From positions 1-32,909 of the forward strand of contig JAJPJD010000041.1 in assembly GCA_021324355.1 (NCBI GenBank): a stretch of 32,909 nucleotides of DNA, read 5' to 3'. A model generated the notes under the pieces. It was not told the origin of the DNA, made no database searches, and saw only the letters and a program-made list of their open reading frames with translations. This stretch comes from Actinomycetota bacterium (GTDB lineage Bacteria; Actinomycetota; Acidimicrobiia; Acidimicrobiales; RAAP-2). Position 1 is the first letter of the stretch; each line of letters starts with the position of its first letter. The translations under genes were made by a program, and so were the position numbers. Of this stretch, positions 2,149 to 3,752 are shown piece by piece.

Positions 2149-2384
2149 GCCGCTCGGCCTTTCTCCATCCCGCGCGTCGATGCCACAGCGGGGGCCCGCC
2201 GGCGGCCGGGTCCTACGAGCCGCGGCGCGACGGGACGTCTCCCTGAGACTAGTGGCGATCGGCCGATCGCCACTAGTCGCCGCCGGTCCAACGGTGTACC
2301 TTCGAACGACCAGGTAATGACCTGTGTTCCACACCTGTGGAGGACATTGTGGACGGTACCACCTGGAGGAGCTCGGAGGCGCAG
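2149..2384 (+). promoter_or_regulatory. Divergent rpmH/dnaA control region
   Basis: These 236 bases separate the divergently transcribed rpmH and dnaA and must hold both promoters. A perfect 32-bp palindrome is at 2247-2278 (separate entry). Nearer dnaA there is a TGTG-TTC-CACA inverted repeat (about 2323-2333) and two ACCTGTG direct repeats. TACCTT near 2296 fits the actinobacterial TAnnnT -10 pattern, but I see no convincing -35, so promoter positions are not assigned. Two Shine-Dalgarno plus GTG units precede dnaA (GGAGG 2339-2343/GTG 2349 and GGAGG 2375-2379/GTG 2385). Imperfect DnaA-box-like sequences (TGTGGAC) occur near 2349 and 2404, so autoregulation by DnaA is plausible. Confidence 0.6.
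2247..2278. repeat. Perfect 32-bp palindrome between rpmH and dnaA
   Basis: The 16-base half gactagtggcgatcgg is followed with no spacer by its exact reverse complement. It contains two ACTAGT sites and two GATC sites and reads GGCGATCG/CGATCGCC around the centre. It lies about 100 bp from either start codon. A perfect two-fold site of this length suits a homodimeric or tetrameric regulator, a cruciform, or a hairpin in either leader transcript. It does not match the parS consensus or a DnaA box. Function is unknown. Confidence 0.9.
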
Positions 2385-3752
2385 GTGGAAGACACCAACG
2401 GGTTGTGGACACGCTGTGCCGCGCTCCTGCGGGAACAGCTGCCGGAATCCGCGTGGCAGATGTGGCTCGCCGGGATCGAGCCAGTCACCGTCCGGACCAC
2501 CGACACCTCCGTCGTCTTGGTCCTCGGGGTCCCCAACCAGGCCGTTCGCGACCGGCTCGAGACCCGGTACCTTTCGCGGATCCGGGAGACCTTGGCCATG
2601 CTCGCCGGCCACGACATCGAGGTGGAGCTCAAGGTCCGCCCCGACGTGCCGGTGCCAGTCCCAGGACCCCAGCTCCAGCCCGCCGAACCCACCGTGACCG
2701 GCTCGTCGACGACCGAGGACGCGACGGTGATCCTCGATTCCCGATTCACCTTCGACAGCTTCGTCGCCGCCTCGTCCAACCGCTTGGCCTACGCCGCCGC
2801 GCAAGCGGTCGCCGAGAACCCCGGCCGGGCGTACAACCCGCTGTACATCTACGGAGACTCGGGCCTCGGCAAGACCCACCTGCTTCACGCGATTGGGAAC
2901 TATGTACGGGAGAACTTCCCGCACCGCAAGGTTCGCTACGTGACGACAGAAACCTTCATGAATGACTACGTCGAGTCGCTCCGGCTCGCCACACAAATGG
3001 TGTTCAAGCGCCACTACCGGGACTGCGACATGCTGTTGATCGACGACATTCAGTTCATGCAGGGTCGAAGCGGGCTGCAGGAGGAGTTTTTCCACACCTA
3101 CAACGATCTCCACGGAACTGGCCGCCAAATTGTCCTCACCTCCGATCGTGCCCCGACCTCGATCGAGACCCTTCAGGACCGGCTACGCAGCCGCTTCCTT
3201 TCCGGCCTCATCACCGAGATCGATCCTCCGGACTTGGAGACCCGTGTCGCGATCCTGCGATCCAAGGCAGCCGCGCACGGCATGGACGTTCCCAATGAGA
3301 TCCTGGATTTCATCGCCACCCATGTCACGAACAACATCCGCGAGCTCGAGGGAGCCCTGATCCGGGTGAGCGCCTTCGCCTCTTTGAACCAGCAACCGTT
3401 CTCCCTCGCACTCGCTGAGAAGGTCCTTGCGGACATGGTCTCGGCCTCCGAGACCCGGCAGATCACCCCCCAGGCCATCCTCGAGACCACGGCTGCCTAC
3501 TACGGTTTCACCGTCGACGCCCTCTGCGGCCCCAGCCGAACTCGGCCCCTGGTCACCGCCCGCCAGGTCGCCATGTACCTGGTGCGCGACCTCACCGAGC
3601 ACAGCTACCCGACGATCGCTCGGATCTTCGGCGGCCGTGACCACACGACCGTGATCCACGCCGTCGACAAGATCACCAAGCAGATGATGGAGCGCCGGCA
3701 AATCTACGACCAGGTCACGGACCTGATCTACAAGATCAAGAGCAACCAGTGA
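2385..3752 (+). CDS. dnaA: Chromosomal replication initiator DnaA
   Basis: DnaA binds oriC, opens it and loads the replicative helicase. From GTG 2385 it has 455 residues: domain I (about 5-75, LWTRCAALL...SAWQMWL), a very short domain II, AAA+ domain III and DNA-binding domain IV. Walker A is GDSGLGKT (157-164), Walker B is [10 protein letters not shown], and the domain IV signature [15 protein letters not shown] is intact near the C terminus. GTG 2385 was chosen because GGAGG lies five bases upstream and domain I begins a few residues later. GTG 2349 has an equally good GGAGG, and GTG 2337 is also in frame, giving 467 or 471 residues. The short domain II contrasts with the long acidic linker in streptomycetes. 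It heads the rightward replication gene set. Confidence 0.97.

Follow-up and report, generated by a model that had tools for sequence, protein, structure and literature searches.

A perfect 32-bp palindrome between rpmH and dnaA in an Acidimicrobiales genome is probably the core of back-to-back promoters

The region between the divergent genes rpmH and dnaA of an Actinomycetota genome (Acidimicrobiales, RAAP-2; GCA_021324355.1) holds a perfect 32-bp palindrome. We suggest that it is probably the core of two back-to-back promoters, one driving rpmH (minus strand) and the other dnaA (plus strand), and that its symmetry came from mutation. To judge from the sequence and its relatives, it most likely acts as the shared -35 region of these divergent promoters. 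A striking but misleading feature is thus replaced by a testable one: a small cis-element, kept in at least 18 genera, in which the -35s of rpmH and dnaA would lie in one box and which appears in two copies when the promoters separate.

Results

The window, by which we mean the whole 32,909-nt stretch analysed, carries the palindrome at 2247-2278 as two halves, GACTAGTGGCGATCGG and CCGATCGCCACTAGTC, with 16 of 16 pairs and a spacer of 0. With a pairing probability of 0.297 per position, taken from the 71.6% GC of a 400-kb sample of the same genome, and assuming independent bases, the expected number of such palindromes is 0.00012 for a window and 0.009 for a genome of 2.445 Mb; the second-longest spacer-free palindromes in the window have arms of 9 nt. 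The original prediction of a real, exact, spacer-free palindrome beyond chance, placed in the rpmH-dnaA divergent promoter region, is therefore borne out. A genome-wide excess of palindromes was considered and rejected, since arms of 8, 9, 10, 11 and 14 nt number 25, 10, 3, 1 and 1 in the 400-kb sample, near expectation except for the last. That exception, the only one in the sample with arms above 11 nt, is another perfect, spacer-free palindrome of 28 bp (locus L109, 5078-5105; G000:C15:105078-105105).

The rpmH gene starts with the GTG at 2146-2148 on the minus strand and continues down to 2014. On the plus strand the mechanical dnaA reading frame begins at GTG 2337, but the likelier start is the in-frame GTG 2385 (gene 2385-3752), because a GGAGG at 2375-2379 and the reading frame from there are both kept in relatives. 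The centre of the palindrome lies about 114 nt from the rpmH start, 122 nt from GTG 2385 and 74 nt from GTG 2337, so that the near-equal distance to both genes that had been proposed holds with the later dnaA start and less well with the earlier one. The first in-frame GTG overlaps an inverted DnaA-box-like pair, TTCCACA-CC-TGTGGA followed by TTGTGGAC (2327-2354), which lies downstream of the putative dnaA -10 and ahead of the likely start, is kept in many relatives and may perhaps have a role in dnaA autoregulation.

The palindrome had been said to match neither parS nor DnaA boxes, and both statements stand. The parS consensus is TGTTTCACGTGAAACA, and no match to it within 3 mismatches was found in the whole window. 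For the DnaA box, whose consensus is TTGTCCACA, seven sites with at most 1 mismatch occur in the window, none of them inside 2247-2278.

Two further origins were weighed. That the palindrome is a copy of a mobile repeat can for practical purposes be dismissed: the only exact occurrences of the 16-base half in the whole genome are the two arms themselves, a 251-base query of the locus matched its own genome at this locus alone, and relatives have the homologous element at the same place. At 2-3 mismatches the half has 30 further sites, and the total of 32 is below the 56 of a reversed control pattern. An assembly artefact is very unlikely. The genome is metagenome-assembled, lies in 64 contigs and is a single assembly of one strain; however, on either side of the palindrome the sequence aligns with relatives base for base and at equal spacing, where a fold-back join would put the left flank out of register, and the differences from the related genomes G003 and G006 within the 32 bp are confined to six sites.

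The relatives were approached through DnaA, matches at E <= 1e-80 placing the locus in 149 of 172 genomes of the family. Of the 149 family genomes that had a DnaA match or were otherwise located, the locus was read in 84; 81 of these gave a gap measured from the rpmH start (62 genomes from 20 genera outside genus g9, plus 19 of g9), and three were without rpmH. None of the six other species of the same genus has the palindrome, the closest DnaA (G006) being 74% identical, and among the 172 family genomes it is present at the locus in this one only, so that within the genomes covered it is confined to this species. The pair CTAGTGGC-N2-26-GCCACTAG, searched for in the 172, turned up in two, namely in this genome at the palindrome itself and in G015, where it lies on a contig other than that of dnaA, and a scan of genome contigs with DnaA returned eight loci and no sister bearing the palindrome. 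A role of the palindrome as such as a conserved site for a dimeric regulator is thus not supported, absence from close relatives being the very observation by which the original prediction was to be refuted.

The same absence bears on a possible role of the palindrome as a cruciform or hairpin close to the replication origin. A single strand does fold, forming a stem of 14 bp closed by a loop of 4 bases (-16.1 kcal/mol, z of -4.5 against shuffles), but such a fold is expected of any perfect palindrome and is missing in all six same-genus species, and we regard this role as highly unlikely. No intrinsic terminator was found, and an RNA hairpin is unlikely, as the putative transcription starts lie outside the palindrome.

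What is conserved is an asymmetric element, CATGCTAGGCGCGAT-N8/9-GCCACTAGTCGG, seen in 44 of the 62 rpmH-dnaA gaps and in 18 genera, and the right half of the palindrome belongs to this cis-element. With a fit threshold of at least 9 of 15 in the left part and a spacing of 8 or 9, 45 gaps pass and 17 fail; one that passes (G075) is a misfit to its dnaA copy and was left out of the 44. All 19 gaps of g9 lack the element (best score 16 of 27), and in this large genus the rpmH promoter seems to have been replaced. Without mismatches the composite occurs in 23 of the 172 genomes, beside rpmH in 22 of the 23, and a reversed control gave 3 matches. Within the partial coverage of our literature search, no account of the motif was found.

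It includes the box CCACTAGTCG (2270-2279), from the right half of the palindrome and one base beyond it, which stands where both promoters would have their -35. Across the family the exact 10-mer lacks specificity, being present in 140 of the 172 genomes; of 30 loci read, one per genome, 8 are at rpmH or dnaA and 22 elsewhere, and the latter lack the composite and look like chance matches, several of them resembling by eye the end of one ribosomal-protein gene. In genera g15 and g5 (L048, L049, L051, L052, L054, L057, L069-L071) the 10-mer recurs at a single conserved position in coding sequence, which by eye is probably the end of a ribosomal-protein gene.

Both strands of the window carry a TANNNT -10 with a -35 at 16-19 nt, and in both cases the spacing is conserved. 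The putative rpmH promoter is TAGTGG (2270-2275, minus strand), 18 nt and TAGTCT (2246-2251); the putative dnaA promoter is TAGTCG (2274-2279, plus strand), 17 nt and TACCTT (2297-2302), the latter inside CGGTGTACCTTCG, which is conserved in the alignment of relatives. The two -35 elements would thus overlap within the one box. The conserved element reads as TAGTGG with TAGCAT for rpmH and TAGTCG with TACCTT for dnaA. Outside g9, the minus strand before rpmH reads TAG(T/A)GN-N17/18-TANNAT; over the 45 fitting rows the -10 is T44 A45 n n A43 T44, and the spacer is 17 nt in 9 and 18 nt in 36. On the plus strand, TAGTCG stands 17 nt upstream of the dnaA TANNNT in 32 gaps and 18 nt in 3, the distance being 30-52 nt in 15 further gaps.

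The hexamer CTAGTC was counted over 61 gaps, with g18 (1 gap) and g9 (19 gaps) left out, and each of its 62 copies has a TANNNT at a distance of 17-18 nt on one side or both. When spacers of 8-30 nt were scanned, every match on the rpmH side fell at 17-18 nt (50 of the 62 copies), and on the dnaA side 35 of the 62 did so with 2 elsewhere. One copy serves both promoters in 23 gaps and the rpmH side only in 15; 12 gaps have two copies, one per promoter (10 of genus g4, with G013 and G017), and 11 have none. In other families of the order, the rpmH side carries TTGNNN-N17-19-TANNNT in all five gaps read, a count made without a control; this favours reading the box position as a -35. A scan of 2100-2450 for the E. 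coli TTGACA/TATAAT consensus gave no site with at least 9 of 12 matches, and assignment to the sigma-70-type class is accordingly one of position and spacing only. TAGTSG-N17/18-TANNNT is absent from the 400-kb sample and so is not a general promoter type there, and TAGTSG, TAGAGS, TTGACN and TTGNNN promoters at 17-18 nt showed no enrichment in that sample, a comparison of weak power.

The same facts can be read in another way, namely that a dedicated activator or repressor binds at CCACTAGTCG and couples rpmH and dnaA, and that inverted doubling of the box here makes a stronger, symmetric site. The box has its sole exact copy in its own genome at this locus, which leaves room for such a regulator; the full composite stands almost always at rpmH, copies share one orientation even in two-copy gaps, each promoter has a box copy of its own in 12 genomes, promoters of this form were not found elsewhere in the 400-kb sample, and the left arm recreates 9 box bases (CCACTAGTC, minus strand). 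However, the box is locked 17-18 nt from a -10 in both directions, which is the place of a -35, the corresponding place at rpmH in other families holds TTGNNN, no other family genome has the inverted doubling at the locus, and the symmetry is not selected. We therefore consider a dedicated regulator unlikely, while giving it more weight than any other alternative. Slightly less likely still is its fuller form, in which the box would be bound by a regulator not yet described, its sites being found so far at the rpmH-dnaA promoters of the family. The box would then lie at both -35s, be usable in either orientation and be duplicated when the promoters part, and in this species it would have become a symmetric pair of sites that favours dnaA at the expense of rpmH. 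If true, the regulator would couple ribosome and replication genes. Some protein may in any case bind the conserved box.

Symmetry between the halves is not conserved across genera, contrary to what a palindromic operator would predict. The gap-9 rows of the 12 genera, the window left out, average 6.2 of 16 pairs when weighted by genus, against 6.3 permuted (p = 0.64), and for the central six pairs the average is 1.8 against 1.95 with arms dealt among the 12 genera (p = 0.70); the family element is therefore not a palindrome under selection. The raw symmetry values, 6.71 within rows and 6.39 between genera, lean the other way. Within the genus itself, all six species have 10-11 of 16 pairs, a quasi-palindrome. 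In a further observation, the element of L124 and L122 (G041 and G042) has 10 pairs and is perfectly symmetric over its 12 central bases, GATTGGCCAATC, so another genus too has come to near-symmetry.

The departures of the window from the family columns are concentrated in the left half, in a stretch (2247-2254) with four differences from consensus, at 2247, 2248, 2253 and 2254; the consensus base has a frequency of 0.91, 0.68, 0.92 and 0.90 at these columns. Each of the four bases complements the right arm, and none is found in any other aligned row, so that change to them is rare or never seen among relatives; the other departures are in variable columns, and columns 2253-2254 also vary in G004 and G005. 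Because the left state of the relatives is common to many other genera, the left half of the palindrome is in a derived state in the window. Against G003 and G006, which have 10 of 16 pairs, there are six differences in the 32 bp, one for each mismatched pair and zero in matched pairs, five of them left of the centre and the sixth immediately to its right. By hand arithmetic, post hoc and with G003 and G006 not the true ancestor, the probability of this pattern from six random changes is about 1e-7.

We suggest the following course of events. Across the genus, the stretch TGCTAGGCGCGATC, which covers the rpmH spacer and -10, is by chance complementary at 10-11 of 16 positions to GATCGCCACTAGTC on the side of the box; the lineage of this species then probably had its left half rewritten to mirror the right half, giving the perfect palindrome. 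The same rewriting would have turned the rpmH -10 from TAGCAT, as in all six same-genus relatives, into TAGTCT, keeping TA and the last T, and the 130 nt on the rpmH side offer no other TANNNT on the minus strand. The rpmH promoter may have been weakened in this way, with the dnaA side left unaltered.

Discussion

Our results make mutation a more likely source of the perfect symmetry than a conserved protein-binding site, and the palindrome probably has no dedicated binder. The cause was plausibly template switching, in what may have been a single arm-conversion event. A free search for a reverse-complement copy event was not significant, with 4 sites gained from G003 or G006 and at least 4 in 66 of 300 randomised targets; other species pairs gave gains of up to 4, and with G001 or G002 as ancestor the best event lay elsewhere. 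Selection for symmetry in this lineage alone is conceivable, and in its own right the palindrome probably matters little for function. The locus would nonetheless be a natural candidate for a promoter rewritten through quasi-palindrome correction, beside the gene for the replication initiator.

Template switching perfects quasi-palindromes in E. coli (PMC7202029), and correction by replication template switching is described for E. coli and yeast (PMC7202029, PMC8794818). As in those accounts, an imperfect inverted repeat here appears to have become perfect when one arm was rewritten to complement its partner; unlike the documented cases, the change is deduced from a comparison of species without a parent sequence, and the free switch search was not significant. 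The Mycobacterium rpmH-dnaA region offers the same gene pair and divergent promoters, and its binders have been sought by affinity pull-down (PMC3982210). PrpR of Mycobacterium prefers an 8-bp palindrome, TTTGCAAA, and by eye this motif, as given in that source (PMC3982210), is not in the 32 bp. A related layout is seen in bidirectional promoters of E. coli, in which a symmetric -10 element is shared (PMC12825309). The two arrangements have in common divergent starts, overlapping core elements and polymerases that may compete; unlike in E. coli, the shared part here would be the -35 box, with the promoters standing back to back and their -10s about 45 bp apart.
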